NCBI GenBank assembly: GCA_903821905.1
Contig: CAIJMQ010000073.1
Location: 1-32,805 of the forward strand
DNA length: 32,805 bases
Source: an uncultured bacterium
GTDB lineage: Bacteria; CAIJMQ01
Direction of reading: 5' to 3'
In this document: in pieces, positions 17,804 through 31,379 of the stretch
How the letters are laid out: each line of letters opens with the position of its first letter
Position numbering within the stretch: the first letter of the stretch is position 1
The notes under the pieces: model-generated
The model's input: only the letters and a program-made list of their open reading frames with translations
Database searches by the model: none
Told to the model about the DNA's origin: nothing
Position numbers and translations under genes: made by a program

Positions 17804-19003
17804 TTATTTCACTAACTCCCCTTTCATTGTTTTATCAAGACAGGAATCAAAGAGTTCTTGGAGTTTTTGTTTTTGCTCAAGGAGTTTCTTTTTATAATCT
17901 TGGGCTGCTTGAAGTTTTTCCACAATTTGTCTCTGGATTCCAAGTGGTGGCAGAAAGATCTTTATTTCTTTTATAATCCTCATACTTAAACCGCTTCGCT
18001 GGTTATCACCTGTGATATTTCTTATTTTGTTATACATATCTTTTAAACCAAAATACAAAAATTCTGACTTTAACTGTTCTTTATTTTGGGAGTCTATAGC
18101 AACTATGGACTGATTACATGTTGCCTTTGTTCTCAGCAATGCAACTGTTCCCCTAGTTTTTCCTTGGCCATTTAAAGCAATCAAAACAGAATTTACAGGC
18201 AGATATTTAGCATTAGAATTTTCCATCCCTTTCTGGGTAATTCTAAAAGGGCAGTCGTATATTTCGCCCTGATGTATGTCGCCTGAAACCAACCATTTTA
18301 TGTCACCATTCTCATAATATTCTTTCACGGTTGATCTCGGAGTCCCCCCAGTCATTAAATTACAAACATTACCTATCTTCACTATCTCCCATTGTTTTCC
18401 CTTTAAATGTAATTCGTTATGTAGCAAACTCTGAAAAAGTTCATCAGTTAAAACGATCTGTTGAGCATTTAACTCCTGCGCCTTTTTAATAGCATCCAAC
18501 CGTCCTACTATTTGGTGCTGGATATGTAATGAGGGAGTGGGAATTTTTGCTTTCAAGTAAAGATTTAGATTTAGATTACGTATACCTGTTGTTTGACTCT
18601 GCAGTCTTAGAGTTGTCCCAATTTTATAGAGATAGAAAAGATAATGGAATAAAAAACGACTATTGATTATATCTTTGTTTGATCTTAATCTCTGAATAAA
18701 ATTTGCAAATGTATAAATCTGATTATCTGGTGCGATAAAATATGATACTCTTCCAACAGGTTGCTCTGGACCACCGCCCGATTTTTCTAATAAAATGTCA
18801 CCATCCTGCAATTGTAAATTTTCAATTTTATCCTTAGGAATTTTTCGCTTAGCAATATTGCTGAAATCTAGTAACCCATCGTTCTCAAAATTTGTTGAGC
18901 GTAGAATCAAAATTCCTTTTTCATTGTTGTGAATAGGTTCGCCCCAAATGCCAGTATCATTTGTTATTAATAATTCACCTAATTTTTTTGTTGGCCAAGA
19001 CAT
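17804..19003 (-). CDS. hsdS: Type I restriction-modification specificity subunit
   Basis: Two TRD halves each followed by conserved helices (PSLHIQHQIVGRLDAIKKAQEL; LPPLGIQRQIVEKLQAAQDYKKKLLEQKQKLQELFDSCLDK). Confidence 0.93.
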   Translation of the reverse strand: MSWPTKKLGELLITNDTGIWGEPIHNNEKGILILRSTNFENDGLLDFSNIAKRKIPKDKIENLQLQDGDILLEKSGGGPEQPVGRVSYFIAPDNQIYTFANFIQRLRSNKDIINSRFLFHYLFYLYKIGTTLRLQSQTTGIRNLNLNLYLKAKIPTPSLHIQHQIVGRLDAIKKAQELNAQQIVLTDELFQSLLHNELHLKGKQWEIVKIGNVCNLMTGGTPRSTVKEYYENGDIKWLVSGDIHQGEIYDCPFRITQKGMENSNAKYLPVNSVLIALNGQGKTRGTVALLRTKATCNQSIVAIDSQNKEQLKSEFLYFGLKDMYNKIRNITGDNQRSGLSMRIIKEIKIFLPPLGIQRQIVEKLQAAQDYKKKLLEQKQKLQELFDSCLDKTMKGELVK

Positions 19004-19008
19004 AGATT

Positions 19009-20526
19009 TTATAGCAGTTTTTTAATATGTTCAAAGTTTCTATCTAATTCTTTATTGGTTTCCTCTATTTCTTTCAATATCTCCTCCGACTCTCTATGTT
19101 TTACTTTTTCTACTCCAATATTGGGATTATATGCATTAGCTGCAAGAATATAATCATTCTCAACTATCTCTTTTACCGGTGTAAGCCAAGATTGGTCTGA
19201 TACTTTGCGCTGAGAGAATTTTGAAAGCAAATCGGGTATATCATTTTTATATTGTGAACCAAATTTTTTAGCAGCAGAAAGAGATGAACCATCGCCAAGC
19301 ATATTATAAAACCAGATTTTCTCTTCGGAATTTAACTTTGGGACTGCTTTCTTTTTAAAGATTAGAACTGAAGTTTTTACTCCTGCATAAGGCTGGAATA
19401 TTCCACCAGGCATTGAGACAACTGCCTGAAGTTCTGTGTTTTCTAAAAGATAGCGACGGATTTCTGTGCCGTCGCGATTTGTGCCGAAAAGTATGCCTTC
19501 AGGCAAAATTATTCCTGCTTTCCCATTTGGTTTTAAAGCATCTATAACATAACCTAAAAACAGAACTTGGGTTTTGGTTGATTTGATAGGTAAGGACTTC
19601 TTGATTCTTTCCTTGTCAACTTTACCGGCAAAAGGCGGGTTAGTCATTACTACATTGTATCTTCTTAAATCTTCCTCATCTTCAGCGCCTGCAACTGTAT
19701 CTCGTCTTTTTATATCTGATTCTTGTAAGCCATGAAGAAAGAAATTCATTAAAGTTAGACGAGTCATTTCGGGGTCAACATCTTGGCCTAAGAAAGTTTC
19801 ATTTTGTAAAAAGTTCCATTGTTTTTTGCTTAACTTATCTCCAGGACCTCGTTTTGTACCGTTATATCCTTCGATGAGTTTAGAATCTGAATTCTGAAGT
19901 TTAATCCATTCATAAGCCGCCAATAAGAATCCGCCCGAACCACAAGCAGGGTCAAAGATTGTTTCACCAATTTTGGGATTGACCATTGTCACCATATAAC
20001 GAATAATATGACGAGGAGTCAAGAATTGACCCAATTCTCCTGCTGCTTCTATCTGATTAAGTAAATCCTCATAGAGGTCACCTTTTACATCGCTGTCCAA
20101 ACGAGAAAAGTCAATCTCATCAATAATATCTAAAGCTCTTTTTAGAGTAACTTCATCAGGAATTAAAAGTTTTGCACCAGAGAACATTCTTCGGATATTT
20201 TCTTTGCCATTAGAAAGAGTCTCCATAAAAGGAAAAACTTCATCCCTGATGAATTTGTAGAGTTCCTTTCCGCTCTTATGAACCCATTCTAACCAGCGAT
20301 ATTGTTCGGTCTTTCCTTTAAAAATAGAATTGTAAGTCCTCTTAGTCAATTGAGCTTCTTTCTCTAAAGCCGTATCTTGCTCCTCCAGCATTTTAAGGAA
20401 GAAGAGAAAACTCATTTGTTGGATTCTTGTTACAGGGTCTTTTAAACCTGCACCCCAAAGATAATCGTTTAAGCGGTTTAATTTTTGTCTATATTCTTCC
20501 TTTAACTGTAAGACTTGCGGGTCCAT
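19009..20526 (-). CDS. hsdM: Type I restriction-modification methyltransferase subunit
   Basis: GELGQFLTPRHIIRYMV, DPACGSGGFLLAAYEWI, NVVMTNPPFAGKVD. Confidence 0.96.
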   Translation of the reverse strand: MDPQVLQLKEEYRQKLNRLNDYLWGAGLKDPVTRIQQMSFLFFLKMLEEQDTALEKEAQLTKRTYNSIFKGKTEQYRWLEWVHKSGKELYKFIRDEVFPFMETLSNGKENIRRMFSGAKLLIPDEVTLKRALDIIDEIDFSRLDSDVKGDLYEDLLNQIEAAGELGQFLTPRHIIRYMVTMVNPKIGETIFDPACGSGGFLLAAYEWIKLQNSDSKLIEGYNGTKRGPGDKLSKKQWNFLQNETFLGQDVDPEMTRLTLMNFFLHGLQESDIKRRDTVAGAEDEEDLRRYNVVMTNPPFAGKVDKERIKKSLPIKSTKTQVLFLGYVIDALKPNGKAGIILPEGILFGTNRDGTEIRRYLLENTELQAVVSMPGGIFQPYAGVKTSVLIFKKKAVPKLNSEEKIWFYNMLGDGSSLSAAKKFGSQYKNDIPDLLSKFSQRKVSDQSWLTPVKEIVENDYILAANAYNPNIGVEKVKHRESEEILKEIEETNKELDRNFEHIKKLL

Positions 20527-20535
20527 ATAAATTCC

Positions 20536-22848
20536 TTAATTAACAAAAACTGTTGTGTTCAATTCTTCAACTGTGCTCTGTATCTCTTTTTCTCCAAAAA
20601 TCTTAATGATATTCTTTAATCCACCAAATTGATTGAAGAGTGGCTGATTAAAGATAGAAATATCAACTTTTTCCTTATTGGCTAAATATTGGTTTTTTAT
20701 TATCCTCATAACCTTTGCCTGCTGGCTATTAAAGTTCTTAGTTAATAGCCAAGATTCAAAAAGGTCGGTTATCTTCTTTTCTTGAAGCTGTTCTTCGGTA
20801 GGTAATCCATAGATTTTTAAAGCGGCTTTGATGAATTCAGAGAGAGTGCCTTGAGGATATTGGTAAGCCGCCCTTAAATTTGCTTCGTTAAAATAGAATT
20901 CTGGAGTATTAAGTTTTCCAGCTAATTCTTGGACTTCGTCATCTGTAAGTTCTTCACCGGATTTAACTTTCTTAATTAGAGGATCTACATCAAGAAGCGA
21001 TTGAACTATTTTCTCCCATTGATATTGATAATCATCTATATCTACTTTTTCTCCTTCTGGGCCAACTTCAACACATTCCCTTTTTACAACCAAATCAACA
21101 TTCTCGGGTGCATTTTCAGGAACTTGTATGAATAGGCGCTCAAAAACTTCTCTCTTTTTCTTTTCTTCTTCTGTAAGCTCCTGTTCTTCCGTACCCCAAG
21201 GAATACCTCGTTTCAATCTCGATATTTCTGAATAAGGATTATATCCTTCATCATTAAAAGCTTTTGTATTCTTTACAAAATCATAAATTCTAAAGGATGT
21301 TTTCCCAATTTTGGTACAAAGACGACTACCTCTACCTCGCATTTGTTGGTAAAGTGTAGGCGATTTTGTCGGTCTAATCATTACGATGTTTTCTGCTTCT
21401 GGACAGTCAAAACCAGTATCGAGCATACCTACCGATACTGCAACATAAGGAAACTCTTCTCGTTTAAATCTCTTAATGGCTCTATCAACATCAGGAACAT
21501 TTGAAGTAATAACTTCGGCGAAGCGACCTTTAAATTCTGGGTATATTTGATTGAAATAATAAGCTAATTGTGCAGCATGCCTTTGTGTAACAGCGTAAAT
21601 AATTGCTTTGCGATTTCGGAAAGGTTGACGCTTTTTTTCTTCCTGTCTGTAAGAAGTTGCAACCAGTTTATTGGCTGCCGGCACGTTAATCTTTCGCTCT
21701 AAATCTTCAGGATTATAATCTTCACCTTCAAAAGTAATACCCTCAAGACGTGTTTTTGTATCAATTTTGACGATATCATAACCAGCAATATAACCTTCTT
21801 CGATACCTCGACGTATACCATAGGCAAAGGTAGGTATTCCTTTTTGCTCTAAGATATTCCAACAATCAAAAAGCTTATATGTGTTTCGGTCTATAAACAT
21901 AGAAGGAGTAGCAGTAAGACCAATCTTTATAGCATCAAAATGGGTTAAGACAGCACTATAAACAGAATATATAGAGCGATGTGCTTCGTCTGAAATCACT
22001 AAATCAAAATAACCACTCGTAAAGCTATTTAATTGGGAATACATAGTAGGTAATGTACCAATAATGATTGAACTCTCTCTTTTAACTTTGCCGCCATAGA
22101 GAAGTTCTGAAGGATAGTCTTTTAGATAGTCATTGAAAGTCTCCTGTGCTTGTTGCCCTAATTCGATTCTATCAACAAGGAACAATACCCTCTCTATCAA
22201 GCCAGCTTCGAATAGACGTTTTATTTGCATAGCAACAGTTAAGGTTTTACCAGTCCCAGTAGCCATTAAAATAAGCATTTTTCTTCTGCCTGATTCGATG
22301 GTCTTGTCCATTACCTGTATTGCTTCTCTTTGATAGGGACGAACTTTCTTGGTTTCGCCTTGGACAAAGACTTGAGTCGGAATAGGGATAACCGATAATG
22401 GCTTTCTTGATTTTCTTAAAATGGAAATTTTTTCGAGGTCTCTTTGGGAAAAGAAAGTAGCAACTTTTTGCTCTGGTTTTTCTATGTGGTCCCAGAAATA
22501 AATATCTTCACCATTACTAAGAAAAATAAAATCTGTTTTCACGTCTTTTGCATATTCTAAAGCCTGCTGTTTACCAGCTTCAGGATCAATTAAGAAACGT
22601 TTTGCTTCAATGACTGCCAAAGGTCTACCGCGTCTATCTTTTAATAAATAATCAGCGCGACCTGTTTTTGTAGATTCTTCGGTTGTTACTTGATTTTTAT
22701 CCTCAATATCCCAACCAGCTTCGCGCAGTTTTCTATCAATAATTATACGAGTATCGCTTTCTCGGAGTATTGAACCTGATACGAGTTTCTCTTCTTGCGG
22801 TTTATAGTCTCTTTCCATGAGGAACTTTTGAATTTTTATTTCCCCCAT
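20536..22848 (-). CDS. hsdR: Type I restriction endonuclease subunit R
   Basis: N-terminal nuclease-like GRADYLL...AVIEAKRF; ILMATGTGKTLT Walker A; ISDEAHRSIYS; QMRGRGSRL. Confidence 0.95.
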   Translation of the reverse strand: MGEIKIQKFLMERDYKPQEEKLVSGSILRESDTRIIIDRKLREAGWDIEDKNQVTTEESTKTGRADYLLKDRRGRPLAVIEAKRFLIDPEAGKQQALEYAKDVKTDFIFLSNGEDIYFWDHIEKPEQKVATFFSQRDLEKISILRKSRKPLSVIPIPTQVFVQGETKKVRPYQREAIQVMDKTIESGRRKMLILMATGTGKTLTVAMQIKRLFEAGLIERVLFLVDRIELGQQAQETFNDYLKDYPSELLYGGKVKRESSIIIGTLPTMYSQLNSFTSGYFDLVISDEAHRSIYSVYSAVLTHFDAIKIGLTATPSMFIDRNTYKLFDCWNILEQKGIPTFAYGIRRGIEEGYIAGYDIVKIDTKTRLEGITFEGEDYNPEDLERKINVPAANKLVATSYRQEEKKRQPFRNRKAIIYAVTQRHAAQLAYYFNQIYPEFKGRFAEVITSNVPDVDRAIKRFKREEFPYVAVSVGMLDTGFDCPEAENIVMIRPTKSPTLYQQMRGRGSRLCTKIGKTSFRIYDFVKNTKAFNDEGYNPYSEISRLKRGIPWGTEEQELTEEEKKKREVFERLFIQVPENAPENVDLVVKRECVEVGPEGEKVDIDDYQYQWEKIVQSLLDVDPLIKKVKSGEELTDDEVQELAGKLNTPEFYFNEANLRAAYQYPQGTLSEFIKAALKIYGLPTEEQLQEKKITDLFESWLLTKNFNSQQAKVMRIIKNQYLANKEKVDISIFNQPLFNQFGGLKNIIKIFGEKEIQSTVEELNTTVFVN

Positions 22849-23968: not shown

Positions 23969-24283
23969 TTATCTTAGGTTCAATGCAAATTTTATTGCTT
24001 CATCCACCATTGTAATTTTTTCAGGGGATAGGGTGGTGAGATGTCCACTTAAGAGATTTTTGGGGATGGTCATGATTGTATCTACATTAATTACGCATTT
24101 CTTGGGCATTCCGTCTTCTTTGTTTAGTTCTACTTCTACAGGTATTTGGCGTATGATTGAAGTAATCTCTGCTACTGTTACTGCGTTTCGGACTTCATAA
24201 GCTTTATTTCTGGAGAGGAGAAGCACAGGTCTACGACCGGCGGGAGCCGGTAAATTCGCCCACCAAATTTCGCCTCGCTTCAT
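23969..24283 (-). CDS. MazF/PemK-like toxin
   Basis: MKRGEIWWANLPAPAGRRPVLLLSRN..., DGMPKKCVINVDTIMTIPKNLL, LSPEKITMVDEAIKFALNL. Confidence 0.92.
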   Translation of the reverse strand: MKRGEIWWANLPAPAGRRPVLLLSRNKAYEVRNAVTVAEITSIIRQIPVEVELNKEDGMPKKCVINVDTIMTIPKNLLSGHLTTLSPEKITMVDEAIKFALNLR

Positions 24284-24528
24284 TACCAGTTTTCCTTTTT
24301 AAGTACGCTGGAAGCTAATTTTGCGGAAACTTCGGCTACCTTTACTTTTTCAGGTGTTTTCTGATAACCCTTGACGTAAGTATTATCTTTTTCCTGTTCT
24401 TCTAAACTTTTGATGAGTTGCTGGCAAGCTTTTCTGATGAAATCAGAACGGTTTTTGAATCTTGAATGAGCTTTTTCATCGATTGTCTTTAAGAGTCCTT
24501 CTTCTATGGGGACTTGAATTGTTTTCAT
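24283..24528 (-). CDS. Ribbon-helix-helix (CopG/MazE-like) antitoxin
   Basis: IQVPIEEGLLKTIDEKAHSRFKNRSDFIRKACQQLIKSL; abuts the toxin gene. Confidence 0.88.
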   Translation of the reverse strand: MKTIQVPIEEGLLKTIDEKAHSRFKNRSDFIRKACQQLIKSLEEQEKDNTYVKGYQKTPEKVKVAEVSAKLASSVLKKENW

Positions 24529-25080: not shown

Positions 25081-25704
25081 CTATTTTTTCAGAATTCCAG
25101 CTATTGCGAGGGCTCTTATCTGGGTTAAGATGAATAATGTCAAAAGGGAAATGAAGATGATGTGCAGGAATTTGTATTTTCCTTTTTGATTTAATTTTCC
25201 GTAGGATAGGGGAATCATCCGCGGGGTTTGGTGCCTATATTGTAAGTATTCTTCTCCAAATCTTGCAGTTAATTTTTTCTCTTCAAAAATTCCGATATAG
25301 ACAAGAATAAACAGGGATACTAAAACGGATGAGAGCACCAGAAGAAAGAAGGAATGCAGAAAGATAGAAGTGCCTATTAAAAGCAATAAGTATCCGAAAT
25401 ACAGGGGATTTCTGCAATATGAATATGGGCCTTCTGTCACCAATTTGCATGTGGGATTATGAGTCGGGAGCATGGTGCCATTGCCTTTTCTTGTCAGGGT
25501 AAAGTAGGAATCGAATGTGAAGAATAATCCCAGACAGAAGAAAGAGACTGCAAAAAGAATATCAAAATGTGAGCGGGGTAGGTAAAGGTTGAATTTTTTG
25601 TCCAGAAGAATGCTTATAAAAATAAAGAATGCGGGGATGATGAACCACTGCCACGATACTGCCAATATGTGGATTAGGGTATTTTTTATTTTCTTTTCAT
25701 TCAT
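25081..25704 (-). CDS. Isoprenylcysteine carboxyl methyltransferase/phospholipid methyltransferase-like membrane protein
   Basis: EGPYSYCRNPLYFGYLLLLIG and EEKKLTARFGEEYLQYRHQTPRMIP motifs plus several TM segments. Confidence 0.85.
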   Translation of the reverse strand: MNEKKIKNTLIHILAVSWQWFIIPAFFIFISILLDKKFNLYLPRSHFDILFAVSFFCLGLFFTFDSYFTLTRKGNGTMLPTHNPTCKLVTEGPYSYCRNPLYFGYLLLLIGTSIFLHSFFLLVLSSVLVSLFILVYIGIFEEKKLTARFGEEYLQYRHQTPRMIPLSYGKLNQKGKYKFLHIIFISLLTLFILTQIRALAIAGILKK

Positions 25705-25758: not shown

Positions 25759-26625
25759 TTATTGTGGTGGTTGTTCCTGTGATGTGCCTGGCGGCCTTCC
25801 TTGCTGCCCTGTTCTACCACCAAAGAAGCTGAAGGGTGAGTTTGTTTGTGAGAGTTCCTGGGCGCGTTTTATGAATTCGTCGGTATTTGTAATGCCGAAT
25901 TCTTTGCTAAGTGATTGCCACTGGTAGGTATTGTAATCCTGAGATAACTGCCCCAATGCTCTGCGTTGTTGGTTCATTTGGTCTCTAAGCGCGGCTCTTT
26001 CTTCTTCTGTTGCGGCAGTTCTGGATTTCTCTTGAAGTTGATACATATCGTCATATGCTTGTTTGATGTTGGTTAATAAGCCGGCTTCGTATTCTGTTTT
26101 TGCTTCTGCGATACGGCTATCTAAGGTTTGGGAGGTTCTTTCCATCATAGATGTTCTCATTTGGTCCATTTGTTCTTGTGTGGGTCTTTGTCTTCTTCCG
26201 GTATCTTCGGACTGCTGCTGGGTAGGGGTGGCAAGTCCTTCTTTCATTAAGTCGGTATATGCACTGTTTAGTAAAGTATTTTCTTCTTTTAGCTTGTTAT
26301 ATTCTTTTTCTTTTTGGGCTAGGGCTTCTTTCAGTTGCGCTGCTGATTTTTGGTCTTTATCTTCAGATGTCTGTAATTGCATGAAATCGTCCATTTCGGA
26401 TTTGAGTTGTTTGTTTTGGGTTTCCAGTTTTGAAGATGAAAGTTCAAACTCGTTTAATTTTGTCTGAAGAACTCTGTTTTGTTCCTGCAGGTCGGAGACG
26501 ACAGATTTATAATTCTTGATGGATTGTATCTGGGTGATTTTAATGAGAATTAGATCGCTTGCAATAAATGCCACTGCGATTATGCCGATAAGCAAATACA
26601 GTTTTAAATTTTTTATCTTGCACAT
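25759..26625 (-). CDS. Membrane-anchored coiled-coil protein with Pro/Gln/Gly-rich C-terminus, last gene of the mla operon
   Basis: N-terminal TM (LYLLIGIIAVAFIASDLILI), long E/K/Q coiled coil, tail FGGRTGQQGRPPGTSQEQPPQ. ATG at 26625 has a gaggtgg RBS. Confidence 0.75.
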   Translation of the reverse strand: MCKIKNLKLYLLIGIIAVAFIASDLILIKITQIQSIKNYKSVVSDLQEQNRVLQTKLNEFELSSSKLETQNKQLKSEMDDFMQLQTSEDKDQKSAAQLKEALAQKEKEYNKLKEENTLLNSAYTDLMKEGLATPTQQQSEDTGRRQRPTQEQMDQMRTSMMERTSQTLDSRIAEAKTEYEAGLLTNIKQAYDDMYQLQEKSRTAATEEERAALRDQMNQQRRALGQLSQDYNTYQWQSLSKEFGITNTDEFIKRAQELSQTNSPFSFFGGRTGQQGRPPGTSQEQPPQ

Positions 26626-26653
26626 ATTCCACCTCTGATAAAAACTAGGGGAC

Positions 26654-27724
26654 CTATCGGCCAACCGGTTTTCTTACAGGTGCTTTACCCTGTTGTTGCT
26701 GGGTTGTCAGTTCTTTTGTTGATTTTTGTATGGTTTGGAGGTTTTGGATTAGAGCACGGATTTCGGCTAAGTCCGCATCGGAAACTTTTTCATTTTTCTC
26801 GCTTAATGTTTTTAGGTTAGATTCCGCTTCTTTTAATCCTACGATAGCATCCTGAAGTGCGTATTTTTCTACGTCTTCTTCTTTGGATTTCCAGACCATT
26901 TTCCAAGGATGGCGTTTTAAGTCAGCTGATAGTATATAAAGGTTATCTGTTATTGTTTCGACATTGGTTGCGATGTCTTTTATTGACTTTCTGTTTTCTG
27001 CAAGGATATTTTCCATATTGTCGGTTATTTTAACGATGTTTCCTGTTATCTGGTCTACTTTTTGAATCTGTTCAGTGTCTGTCATTTCCGAGATATTGGC
27101 AAGGACAGTATTAAGTTTGCCTGTAATTCCGTCAAGGTCTCTGTTTAAAGATTGAGTAATTCCGTTTACATTTGAAATGATGGTTTTGATTTGGTCTTTG
27201 TCATTGGCGACTGTTTCTGAGATTGTAGCAACATTTTTAAGGGTTTTATCAAGGCTGTCTAAGCTTGAAGTTATTTTGTCGCTTGAGACCAAGTCTTTTA
27301 TGCTGCTTACCACTTCTTCTATTTGCTGGGTAATACTGGCATCGCTGCCCTGTATTGTTTCACCTGACTGGACAATATCGCCCTTGCCGGGAGTTATCTC
27401 TATGTAGGAATCTCCCATTACGTTAGCGCCGATTTTAATATCGGAATTTCTTTTTATATTTACACCTTTTGCCAGTCTAAGGGTGATATAGACATTGTCT
27501 TGTTCATCTACTGTTATTTTGGAGACTGCGCCTGATTTGACTCCCGCATAGTAAACAGCACTATTGAGTTTAACACCTCTTGCGTTACTGAATTTTACCG
27601 TGATTTCGGTTTTGGGCTGAAAAGATTCCTTGAAGTTTCCGGCTTTGAAAATTAGCCCAAGTAATAGGAACATACATACTAAAACAAAAATTCCTGCTAC
27701 AATCTCGTTTCTATCGTATTTCAT
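26654..27724 (-). CDS. mlaD: MlaD/MCE family lipid-transport substrate-binding protein
   Basis: N-terminal TM; ITVKFSNARGVKLNSAVYYAGVKSGAVSKI MCE domain; MGDSYIEITPG; helical C-terminal region. Confidence 0.92.
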   Translation of the reverse strand: MKYDRNEIVAGIFVLVCMFLLLGLIFKAGNFKESFQPKTEITVKFSNARGVKLNSAVYYAGVKSGAVSKITVDEQDNVYITLRLAKGVNIKRNSDIKIGANVMGDSYIEITPGKGDIVQSGETIQGSDASITQQIEEVVSSIKDLVSSDKITSSLDSLDKTLKNVATISETVANDKDQIKTIISNVNGITQSLNRDLDGITGKLNTVLANISEMTDTEQIQKVDQITGNIVKITDNMENILAENRKSIKDIATNVETITDNLYILSADLKRHPWKMVWKSKEEDVEKYALQDAIVGLKEAESNLKTLSEKNEKVSDADLAEIRALIQNLQTIQKSTKELTTQQQQGKAPVRKPVGR

Positions 27725-28550
27725 TTTTTCTCACTCCTTCCAATAGGTCTTCATAAAAATCTTTACTTGATACTCTTAATGGTATTGGGCCGTCTGCAAG
27801 GCCCTGGATAAACTGTTGGACAAATTTGTCTTTTGAGTTTTTTATTTCGTCCGGTGTACCTGCAGCAATGACCTCACCTTTGTATAGCATAATGATTCTG
27901 TGTGCTGTTCTATAGGCGCTGTTCATATCGTGGGTGATAACAACTGAGGTCATATTCATTTTTTCGTTTAGTTCAACGATTAGTTTGTCGATTACAGCAG
28001 TCATAATAGGGTCTAGTCCGCTTGTGGGTTCGTCGTAGAACAGTACTTCAGGGTCGAGCGCGATTGCTCTGGCAAGGGCTACTCTTTTCTGCATTCCGCC
28101 GGAAAGTTGGGATGGCATAAGGTTATGAAAATCTCTTAAGCCAACCAGCTCAAGTTTAACTTTTACCATAATATCTATAACTGATTCGGCGATATTAGTA
28201 TGTTCTCTTATAAGGAGTGCTACGTTTTCTCCGACTGTGAGTGAGTTGTAAAGCGCGCCGTTCTGGAAAAGGATACCGAATCTTTTGCGTATCTCGTCCA
28301 TCTTTTTTTCATCTTTTAAGCCGACCAGTTCTGTGCCGAAAAACTTTAAGCTTCCGGAATCTGCCTGGTGGACATTGATAAGGCATCTTAGAAGCGTAGA
28401 TTTACCGCAACCACTACCGCCGATTATGATTAACCGCTCACCTTTGTAAACGTCCAAGTTGATATCTTTAAGCACGGTGCGGCCGTTAAAAATCTTGGAT
28501 AGATTTCTTACGGATATTACTGCTTCACGTTTTTTCTTTTCTTCCGGCAT
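27711..28550 (-). CDS. mlaF: ABC transporter ATP-binding protein, MlaF type
   Basis: IIGGSGCGKSTLLRCL Walker A, LSGGMQKRVALARAI signature, VLFYDEPTSGLDP Walker B. Confidence 0.94.
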   Translation of the reverse strand: MPEEKKKREAVISVRNLSKIFNGRTVLKDINLDVYKGERLIIIGGSGCGKSTLLRCLINVHQADSGSLKFFGTELVGLKDEKKMDEIRKRFGILFQNGALYNSLTVGENVALLIREHTNIAESVIDIMVKVKLELVGLRDFHNLMPSQLSGGMQKRVALARAIALDPEVLFYDEPTSGLDPIMTAVIDKLIVELNEKMNMTSVVITHDMNSAYRTAHRIIMLYKGEVIAAGTPDEIKNSKDKFVQQFIQGLADGPIPLRVSSKDFYEDLLEGVRKNEIR

Positions 28551-28559
28551 TTTTTTATA

Positions 28560-29354
28560 TTAAAAAGCTTCAAGGTATATGTTATAGAACATAGAAAAAA
28601 CTAAATTCGCAAGTATAATAAATATCATTGAAAATACAACAGAGTTTGTTGTTTCCTTACCTACGCCTTCTGCGCCGCCTCTGACTTTAATGCCATAGTA
28701 ACATGCCAAAGAAGCAATGATTACTCCGAACGTAAAAGATTTAATAATTGAATATACTAAGATTCTGATTTCAATTGCTTCGAAGGTAAGCTGAAGATAT
28801 AGAGCAGGGCTGACATTCAATAGTAATTTACTGGTTAATAAGCCTCCGGTAATTCCGGCAATATCGGCTATTATTACAAGACAGGGTAAAGCTATGGCTG
28901 TAGCCAGAACACGCGGTACAATAAGAAAATAGACAGGGTTTAGGGCCGATGTTTCAAGAGCCATTAATTCTTCGCTTACATTCATTGTTCCTATTTCTGC
29001 CGCAATTGATGCGCCGGCAAATCCACTCATTACTAGTGCCGTCAAAAGTGCCCCTATTTCTCTTGTAATCGAGACAGCTATTATATTGGCTATCAAAGAA
29101 GGAACACCAAAACGCACAAGAAGCGGCGACATTGCAACTGCCAGTATCATTCCAACCAAGAAAAGCACAAGACAAATTATAGGTATGGCTCTGATTCCAA
29201 CTCTGATAATTTGGTAAGCAGCACTCTTCATTCTGATTTTTTTGCCTCTGAAGGGGGCGACAATTGTCCAATACAAAATATCGCTCATTAGGAAATAGAA
29301 ATTGCTTACTTCTTTCAGGAAACCTATTGCAGCTCTGCCGAGTTTTCCTATCAT
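28560..29354 (-). CDS. mlaE: MlaE-type ABC transporter permease
   Basis: ITREIGALLTALVMSGFAGASIAAEIGTMNVSEELMALETSALNPVYFLIVPRVLA motif; multiple TM segments. Confidence 0.94.
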   Translation of the reverse strand: MIGKLGRAAIGFLKEVSNFYFLMSDILYWTIVAPFRGKKIRMKSAAYQIIRVGIRAIPIICLVLFLVGMILAVAMSPLLVRFGVPSLIANIIAVSITREIGALLTALVMSGFAGASIAAEIGTMNVSEELMALETSALNPVYFLIVPRVLATAIALPCLVIIADIAGITGGLLTSKLLLNVSPALYLQLTFEAIEIRILVYSIIKSFTFGVIIASLACYYGIKVRGGAEGVGKETTNSVVFSMIFIILANLVFSMFYNIYLEAF

Positions 29355-29359
29355 AGTTT

Positions 29360-29662
29360 CTATTCAAAAGTAAAAATTTTATCTAATCGTGCAATCATAA
29401 AAATATCTTTGCAGGTTTCATTGAGGTTTGAAAGAATAAGTGCGCCGTCGTATGCTTTTGTTATTTTTAAGCATTCGATGAAAGTGGCAATTGCTGAAGA
29501 ATCTAAATATTCGACACCTTTCATGTCTATGTATATTTCTTTTATCTTTTTCTTGCTCAAACTAACCAGAACAACTCTTAATTCGTTTGAATTTTTGAAT
29601 GTAATCGTTCCGACTATTGTAACAGTTGTTCTTTTCCCCAATTCATCAGTTTTTATATCCAT
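29360..29662 (-). CDS. STAS-domain protein (anti-sigma-factor-antagonist/MlaB-like)
   Basis: VTIVGTITFKNSNELRVVL...IYIDMKGVEYLDSSAIATFIECLK; conserved DSS phosphosite region of SpoIIAA/RsbV-like proteins. Confidence 0.9.
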   Translation of the reverse strand: MDIKTDELGKRTTVTIVGTITFKNSNELRVVLVSLSKKKIKEIYIDMKGVEYLDSSAIATFIECLKITKAYDGALILSNLNETCKDIFMIARLDKIFTFE

Positions 29663-29669
29663 AGTTATA

Positions 29670-31379
29670 TTATTTCACCTTTTTGATTAATCTTAGTTCG
29701 TTACCGTCCTTTACGGGGAGGTATTCTACAGAATCCATAATCTCTTTTATAAAGTGAACTCCCAGTCCGCCGGGCCTTATATCTTTTAGGTCTCTGGATA
29801 CAATTTTTTCTTCATCTACTTTTTTCCCGTAATCCCTTAATAAAACTTTCAATGTTTTTCCTTCTCCGGATACGCTGACTTCTATTTTACCAATTTCTCC
29901 GCCATATGTATATTTAATAATATTAGAAAGCGCTTCCAGAACAGCTACTATAATAAGATTGGTGTCCTTTTTATTGAAACCTACTTTGGTCGCTATTTGT
30001 AAGATTATTTTTCTTAACTGTACGGTATTGTCCTCATCTGTAAATATTAATATTTCGTTATGTGTAAAACGATAATCGGGTAGGGGAGAGCGGAAAATAC
30101 TTATCATGGTGATATCGTCAGGTTGACCGGTTTCTTTTATGCGACTATCTATCTCTTTAAGGAAATCGCCCTTAAAATCAGCCGAAGTGCTGTGTTTTTC
30201 AGCTATTTTTTTAATACCATCTATCCCGATTAATATTCCTTCTTTATTTTTTATATCTGTTAAGCCGTCGGTTATAAGAATAACTCTTTCCCCCAGTTTT
30301 AATATAAATTCTTGAGTTTTAAAATCTATTCCTTTAATTATACCAACAGGTGGATTTTCACTTCTGGTAAAGATATTAGCTGTTTTCTCTCCTAAAATTA
30401 AAGGGGAAATATGTCCTGCATTGAACACTTTTACTTTGCCTGTTTTTAGTTCTATTATAAGTAAAAGCAATGTTATGAACATTCCTCTTGTGCTTCTTTC
30501 CAGTATATGATTGTTGATTTTTTCTATTACTGTTAGCTGGTCTTTTTCATTTTCAAGGAGGAATCGCATGTCTGAACTCATTTTGGACATAAACAGAGCT
30601 GCTGGGATGCCTTTCCCGGATACATCAGCAATATAAACAGCAATTCTATTATTTTTTAAAGGAACAATATCATAAAAATCACCGCCTACTTCTTTTGCGG
30701 AAAGATAGAATGCGTCAAAATAGTAATCTTTGGTCTGAGGTATAACTTTTGGTAGAAAGTTTTGCTGGATTGAACGGGCATAATCCAAGTCTGCCTGCAA
30801 CTGTTCTTGTTCGTCTTTATGTTTTAGAAGTTGCTGGTTTCTTATGGCAATGGCACTCAAATTACAGAAATGGGTGAATATCTCTGCATCCTTGTTAGTG
30901 AATTCACCTTTTCTTTTATTTAATACCTGGACGGTTCCGATTACAGTGCCGTTAAATGTCTTAAGCGGCATGCACAAATAGGAACGAGTCTTAAATCCTG
31001 AAGCTTTATCAAAAGAGGGGTCAAATCTTGGGTCTTTATAGGGGTCATTTAGTATTAAATATTCACCGGTTTTGGCAACCCAACCGCAAATCCCCTGTCC
31101 GAGTTTTATCGATATACCTTTGATTATCTGGCCGGCTTCGCCTCTGGCAACAGCGAACTTCAAATCCCCCGTTTCCTCATCCAATAAAGTCAAAGATGAG
31201 GTTTCAGCATTCATGATTTCTTCAGCCATCCTCATAATTACTTCAAGGAGGTCCTGGACATTAGTGGCAGAAACTATAATTTCCGCTACTTTAAGTAGTT
31301 TTGATAGGCTTTTGATCTCTTGATTGGCTTCTTGTAGGGATTTGTTTTGTTTATTGAGGAATTTATTATCTCTTAGCAT
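29670..31379 (-). CDS. GAF - SpoIIE/PP2C phosphatase - HATPase_c_2 (RsbW-like kinase) fusion protein
   Basis: GAF region; EVGGDFYDI, IADVSGKGIPAALFMS, ITDGLTDIKN, GQPDDITMISI (PP2C/SpoIIE); VAVLEALSNIIKYTYGG and PGGLGVHFIKEIMD (HATPase N-box and G-box). Confidence 0.92.
   Translation of the reverse strand: MLRDNKFLNKQNKSLQEANQEIKSLSKLLKVAEIIVSATNVQDLLEVIMRMAEEIMNAETSSLTLLDEETGDLKFAVARGEAGQIIKGISIKLGQGICGWVAKTGEYLILNDPYKDPRFDPSFDKASGFKTRSYLCMPLKTFNGTVIGTVQVLNKRKGEFTNKDAEIFTHFCNLSAIAIRNQQLLKHKDEQEQLQADLDYARSIQQNFLPKVIPQTKDYYFDAFYLSAKEVGGDFYDIVPLKNNRIAVYIADVSGKGIPAALFMSKMSSDMRFLLENEKDQLTVIEKINNHILERSTRGMFITLLLLIIELKTGKVKVFNAGHISPLILGEKTANIFTRSENPPVGIIKGIDFKTQEFILKLGERVILITDGLTDIKNKEGILIGIDGIKKIAEKHSTSADFKGDFLKEIDSRIKETGQPDDITMISIFRSPLPDYRFTHNEILIFTDEDNTVQLRKIILQIATKVGFNKKDTNLIIVAVLEALSNIIKYTYGGEIGKIEVSVSGEGKTLKVLLRDYGKKVDEEKIVSRDLKDIRPGGLGVHFIKEIMDSVEYLPVKDGNELRLIKKVK

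Follow-up and report, generated by a model that had tools for sequence, protein, structure and literature searches.

A candidate partner-switching module encoded together with an Mla-type lipid ABC transporter in an uncultured bacterium

STAS proteins are found both in the E. coli ATP-binding cassette (ABC) transporter MlaFEDB, where the free STAS protein MlaB accompanies the permease MlaE, the ATPase MlaF, and MlaD (PMC5016091, PMC7367683), and in the Bacillus partner-switching systems SpoIIAA-SpoIIAB-SpoIIE and RsbV-RsbW-RsbU/P, which combine a STAS protein carrying a serine phosphosite with a GHKL kinase and a PP2C phosphatase. Here we describe an operon that carries the parts of both, located in a window of 32,805 nucleotides, that is, the whole of contig CAIJMQ010000073.1 (C73 in our numbering), from an uncultured bacterium whose genome of 1.3 Mb is 84% complete and whose relatives carry the labels Candidatus (Ca.) Ratteibacteria or Omnitrophota. 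The operon encodes a GAF-SpoIIE-HATPase_c_2 fusion, a STAS protein, MlaE, MlaF, and MlaD, and we consider it likely that these form a partner-switching module complete in itself, with an Mla-type lipid ABC transporter as its output, not a sigma factor, and with the STAS protein acting as an RsbV-like MlaB.

The E. coli system provides the closest point of comparison for the transporter. There, MlaF contacts MlaB through Tyr261, Leu265, and Leu266 of a C-terminal extension (PMC7367683), the MlaB substitution T52E lowers MlaF binding (PMC7367683), and T52A abolishes ATPase activity (PMC5016091). Both papers suggest that MlaB may be phosphorylated, naming no kinase, and Kolich et al. call the regulation of MlaB an open question (PMC7367683). 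STAS-MlaE fusions, of which Brucella MpcE is one (PMC12436622), likewise pair STAS with an MlaE-type permease. STAS genes and fusions are mentioned in a 2007 survey of mce operons, which describes neither a kinase nor a phosphatase of this kind in their neighborhood; a 2023 survey of 1083 genomes, based on an E. coli-type MlaB profile and synteny, reports MlaB as sparse and mostly proteobacterial (PMC10665443); and a review of STAS proteins does not mention Mla (PMC8256260). In the open-access literature, subscription journals and preprints lying outside the search, no relevant paper was found on MlaE with RsbW or on MlaB with partner switching. Neither the parts nor the published hypothesis of MlaB phosphorylation is new; the operon-level evidence appears to be.

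Single polypeptides that unite a PP2C phosphatase with an RsbW-like kinase have precedents in Rv1364c and Pseudomonas PA3346/HsbR, whose known or proposed outputs are sigma/anti-sigma or motility regulation, not a lipid transporter. The window fusion shares this organization with Rv1364c (PDB 3ke6) and with PA3346, which phosphorylates the STAS protein PA3347 (PMC8256260), and differs from both in having GAF as its sensor.

The five genes occupy 26654-31379 on the minus strand in the order fusion, STAS, MlaE, MlaF, MlaD, separated by gaps of 7, 5, 9, and -14 bp, and according to Pfam and NCBIfam this one operon-like set includes a permease (MlaE), an ATPase (MlaF), and an MCE protein (MlaD). 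These databases bear out the domain make-up proposed by an earlier, sequence-only reading of this DNA. That reading had counted six tightly spaced minus-strand genes: all six open reading frames exist and five form a unit, the sixth being unconserved. The features of the unit, with lengths in amino acids (aa), are as follows.

29670..31379, minus strand: GAF-SpoIIE(PP2C)-RsbW-like HATPase fusion, 569 aa (Pfam; kinase model; conserved catalytic residues)
30843..31259, minus strand: GAF domain of the fusion, residues 41-179 (Pfam GAF, E 9e-21)
30096..30653, minus strand: SpoIIE/PP2C phosphatase domain of the fusion, residues 243-428 (Pfam SpoIIE, E 2.5e-39)
29682..30032, minus strand: RsbW/SpoIIAB-like kinase domain of the fusion, residues 450-566 (Pfam HATPase_c_2, E 7.5e-20)
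29360..29662, minus strand: STAS protein, 100 aa, RsbV-like, occupying the MlaB position (Pfam STAS, E 4e-16)
29498..29500, minus strand: Ser55 codon, predicted phosphosite within D54-S55-S56 (aligned with SpoIIAA Ser58 and E. coli MlaB Thr52)
28560..29354, minus strand: MlaE permease, 264 aa (Pfam MlaE, E 6e-65; MlaE tree)
27711..28550, minus strand: MlaF ATPase, 279 aa (Pfam ABC ATPase; top NCBIfam model MlaF)
27714..27791, minus strand: MlaF C-terminal extension, GPIPLRVSSKDFYEDLLEG (F/L/L at the E. coli Tyr261/Leu265/Leu266 positions)
26654..27724, minus strand: MlaD, MCE domain, long form, 356 aa (Pfam MlaD/MCE, E 6e-14)

The fusion is predicted to be a sensor, a phosphatase, and a serine kinase in a single chain. 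Its kinase domain was modeled with a predicted local distance difference test score (pLDDT) of 86.3, the best structural fits being SpoIIAB and RsbW, and retains the E/N of the N-box, the D-x-G of G1, and the PGGLG of G2; R17, E43, A44, N47, Y53, D77, G79, P97-G101, and D110 are invariant across 14 such kinases. The phosphatase domain conserves its aspartates in GGDFYD, ADVSGKG, TDG, and DD, so that the two opposing activities, as had been read from the letters, keep their motifs intact in one chain, and the same residues are conserved among relatives. The GAF domain is nearest to cyclic-nucleotide GAF domains in the PDB, is PDE/CyaB2-like by sequence, and, of the NKFDE motif, keeps N, K, F, and D; the nearest structures and these residues suggest a cyclic nucleotide as a possible ligand.

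The STAS protein has TM1442 and B. subtilis RsbV as its nearest relatives by sequence, and its model (pLDDT 93.5) gives a template modeling (TM) score of 0.94 to RsbV of the RsbV/RsbW complex and of 0.70 to E. coli MlaB, so that the predicted STAS and kinase folds match a cognate RsbV-type/RsbW-type pair. The DSS phosphosite region noticed earlier reads D54-S55-S56, and Ser55 aligns with E. coli MlaB Thr52 and with the SpoIIAA phosphosite, which we take, from general knowledge, to be Ser58. D-S-S is invariant in all 26 aligned Mla-linked STAS proteins; three further Mla-linked STAS proteins outside that alignment read I-S-S-A, with the central Ser retained, and fused STAS domains retain D-S, mostly without the second Ser. 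Five positions, R29, S56, A59, T60, and E63, distinguish Mla-linked STAS proteins from those of non-Mla partner switches; they are sited on helices 1 and 2, within the reported MlaF-binding face of E. coli MlaB (PMC7367683), which involves helices 1-3, and A59 is Ala in E. coli MlaB too. As the comparison set holds 14 proteins, 12 of them of one type, these positions are only supportive.

Compared with E. coli MlaFEDB, the operon has the same MlaE, MlaF, MlaD, and free STAS components, an aromatic-Leu-Leu C-terminal extension on MlaF, and a Ser/Thr in STAS at the SpoIIAA phosphosite. Unlike in E. coli, the STAS protein is RsbV-like and its gene precedes mlaE, with a kinase and a phosphatase as neighbors, the MlaD protein is long, and MlaC was not found in a search across the phylum of the window; whereas no kinase is known for E. 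coli MlaB, a candidate adjoins its counterpart here. With the Bacillus systems the operon shares the STAS protein with its Ser phosphosite, the GHKL kinase, and the PP2C phosphatase, and it departs from them in having no sigma factor and an ABC transporter as the fourth partner.

The arrangement is not peculiar to the window organism. Each of the four genomes of its family, f1 (G000-G003, 81-96% complete), retains the fusion beside mla, as the sequence-only reading would have it, and contains a single STAS protein, always beside MlaE in this operon, a single SpoIIE protein, located in the same operon, and a single strong HATPase_c_2 protein (71-80 bits, the runners-up scoring at most 28 bits). 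Any STAS substrate of the kinase within the sequenced part of the genome would therefore be the operon STAS, since no other is present there. In the sister family f2 (three genomes; loci L017-L019), the only Mla system is STAS-less, and the sole STAS protein (~155 aa) and SpoIIE of each genome adjoin a sensor kinase and an NtrC-like regulator, unlinked to Mla; this cluster was considered as a related Mla unit and rejected as a different system.

Beyond these families, 393 genomes, mostly one per family, were screened for MlaE, and ~7 kb on either side was inspected for 40 of the best MlaE matches outside the phylum. A free STAS gene lies just upstream of mlaE in 23 of the 40 loci, 22 of which are assessable, L093 being cut by a contig end, and in 21 of these 22 STAS is directly preceded by an RsbW-like kinase, either as a gene or as a domain, mostly at short spacing. 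No kinase adjoins STAS fused to MlaE (0/6 loci) or an STAS-less Mla system (0/11 loci); the association of free STAS with the kinase gives a Fisher p of 3.5e-10, uncorrected for kinship. The typical order is SpoIIE, kinase, STAS, MlaE, MlaF, MlaD, with phosphatase and kinase fused in L066, L072, L073, L076, L081, L084, and L095 and encoded separately elsewhere, and the sensor parts differ among loci, being mostly GAF and also FHA-GAF and CHASE2. In L063 and L068, which represent both genomes of family f26, the kinase-STAS-Mla genes stand behind a ribulose-phosphate 3-epimerase gene, with no SpoIIE nearby.

A search anchored on the kinase, with an alignment of 14 Mla-linked kinases as query, returned exclusively Mla-linked kinases in its top 17 ranks, L094 and L095 being new among them; the lower-ranked kinases include some that are Mla-linked and others that adjoin STAS and SpoIIE genes but no Mla. 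In a held-out search of 44 genomes of one other phylum, which yielded 15 kinases unused before, 8 of the 15 adjoin free STAS, MlaE, and MlaF. Pairs of GAF-SpoIIE with an Mla-type RsbW kinase were seen in families f271 and f272 (L117, L119, L120, L123, L126-L128); the STAS proteins of these genomes have no Mla genes in the short flanking stretches that were fetched. Altogether, the arrangement, split or fused, occurs at 31 loci in 20 families besides the window's own, hence at least 21 families overall, and its carriers span at least three phyla, because the whole phylum of G237 was listed and most carriers fall outside it. We favor, with moderate confidence, the existence of a widespread class of Mla transporters whose lipid traffic across the envelope would be gated after translation, an RsbW-type kinase and a PP2C phosphatase dedicated to this task acting on an RsbV-like MlaB.

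The C terminus of MlaF would connect this module to the transporter. An aromatic residue stands at the position of E. coli Tyr261 in 23 of the 24 MlaF rows of free-STAS loci, the remaining one having Leu. The STAS-MlaE fusions differ from the free-STAS systems in that STAS is joined to the permease with no kinase alongside, and the MlaF proteins examined from such loci are without this tail; nearly all STAS-less MlaF rows lack it too, a short tail carrying F at the Tyr261 position occurring in one of them and a different tail in two. The window genome itself offers an internal comparison, as its second MlaE-MlaF pair (G000:C22), which is without STAS, includes an MlaF that has no tail. This co-occurrence of free STAS with an MlaB-binding MlaF tail supports the proposed binding between STAS and MlaF.

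In the MlaE tree (52 rows), a branch with support 99/96 separates two groups. The first comprises all STAS-MlaE fusions, the two STAS-only rows, and nearly every kinase-linked system, along with two rows that are STAS-less and a third, L094, that was labeled NONE and is actually kinase-linked; the second holds most STAS-less systems, including the paralogue in the window genome, with L069 as a kinase-linked exception. The STAS-MlaE fusions form one clade (97/91) nested in the group with nearly all kinase-linked systems, and these kinase-free fusions may be descendants that have lost the switch.

Taken together, the window STAS protein is most likely an RsbV-type MlaB that would control MlaFE, the kinase phosphorylating its Ser55 and the phosphatase reversing this, and the earlier reading of a phospho-switched Mla transporter is supported. 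In the mechanism that we propose, unphosphorylated STAS would dock on MlaF and support its ATPase; the RsbW-like domain would phosphorylate Ser55, or keep STAS in a kinase complex, so that STAS is withdrawn and transport falls; and the SpoIIE/PP2C domain, under the control of the GAF ligand, would strip the phosphate and restore transport. The direction of the switch follows the logic of SpoIIAA/RsbV and the lowering of MlaF binding by T52E in E. coli, and we infer it, along with the binding of STAS to MlaF, Ser55 phosphorylation itself, a GAF ligand, and lipid as the cargo.

Several observations weigh against this proposal. SpoIIE is not nearby in 6 of 23 loci, and L064 has a free STAS and the MlaF tail, yet no kinase was found within 7 kb. 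The seven remaining held-out kinases, those of f271/f272, have SpoIIE without STAS or Mla beside them, and the idea that all kinases of this type serve Mla was rejected, as these kinase-phosphatase pairs stand alone. D-S also persists in the STAS-MlaE fusions that have no adjoining kinase, so that conservation of the serine may be structural and was rejected as proof of phosphorylation in its own right. Finally, E. coli MlaB T52A still binds MlaF yet is inactive (PMC7367683), which misfits simple control of binding, and an on/off switch by binding may therefore be incomplete.

The last point also speaks for a reversed logic, compatible with the overall claim, in which phospho-STAS acts on MlaF or the kinase domain, in place of STAS, contacts the transporter. 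Phosphorylation of BtrV promotes BtrV-BtrW binding (PMC8256260), which would be a precedent; against it stand the lowered MlaF binding of T52E and the fact that canonical SpoIIAA and RsbV act unphosphorylated (PMC8256260), and we regard this reversal as unlikely.

The main rival to an Mla-directed switch is an ordinary sigma-factor partner switch, in which the kinase would be an anti-sigma factor, STAS its antagonist, and mla merely co-transcribed or a regulated output. The STAS and kinase folds are indeed closest to RsbV and SpoIIAB/RsbW, and related kinases at other loci adjoin STAS and SpoIIE without Mla. The family genomes do contain sigma factors elsewhere, with three Sigma70_r2 matches in that of the window, but besides an RpoD-size protein and one 66-aa fragment, those of f1 are frames of 171-203 aa, the size of extracytoplasmic function (ECF) sigma factors, whereas sigmaB and sigmaF measure roughly 250 aa. 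No sigma factor lies adjacent to the window operon, as the sequence-only reading had remarked, and the 25 commonest families in 116 flanking genes include none of sigma factors. Nor does a sigma switch predict that the MlaB-binding tail of MlaF tracks free STAS, and we hold this rival to be quite improbable.

That STAS is instead a constitutive MlaB-like assembly factor, the kinase and phosphatase targeting MlaF itself or another protein and the gene order being historical, has in its favor that MlaB of E. coli is functional with no kinase known for it (PMC7367683), that no kinase stands beside STAS-MlaE fusions, and that the f271/f272 pair occurs without STAS or Mla, but it appears very improbable given that the f1 genomes hold no other STAS, that kinase and STAS genes are neighbors so consistently and closely, and that the predicted folds match a known kinase-substrate pair.

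Several other genes of the window lie downstream of the operon.

25759 to ~26625, minus strand: transmembrane (TM) coiled-coil protein, the sixth open reading frame (ATG start at 26625 taken over an upstream TTG)
25081-25704, minus strand: PEMT-type phospholipid methyltransferase-like gene, next downstream of the coiled-coil gene and possibly a lipid-related neighbor
23969-24528, minus strand: PemK/MazF-type toxin, overlapped by one base by a small upstream partner gene
17804-22848, minus strand: genes resembling a Type I restriction-modification system, with translations like HsdS and HsdM and an HsdR-like gene (Pfam HSDR_N, ResIII, EcoEI_R_C)

Given the ATG at 26625, the sixth frame begins 28 bp past mlaD. 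Pfam gives no match for it, and no similar frame was seen downstream of mlaD in the sister genus, though the five genes are retained there; it is therefore probably outside the conserved unit and was rejected as a member.

As to what the finding means, RsbV-like MlaB proteins such as that of the window may have escaped the survey of 1083 genomes (PMC10665443), and the gene cluster supplies a candidate kinase and phosphatase for MlaB, which makes the question of its regulation testable in vitro. If the proposal is true, partner switching would be extended to the control of an ABC transporter, and phosphorylation would turn a lipid pump on and off, which is so far a proposal.

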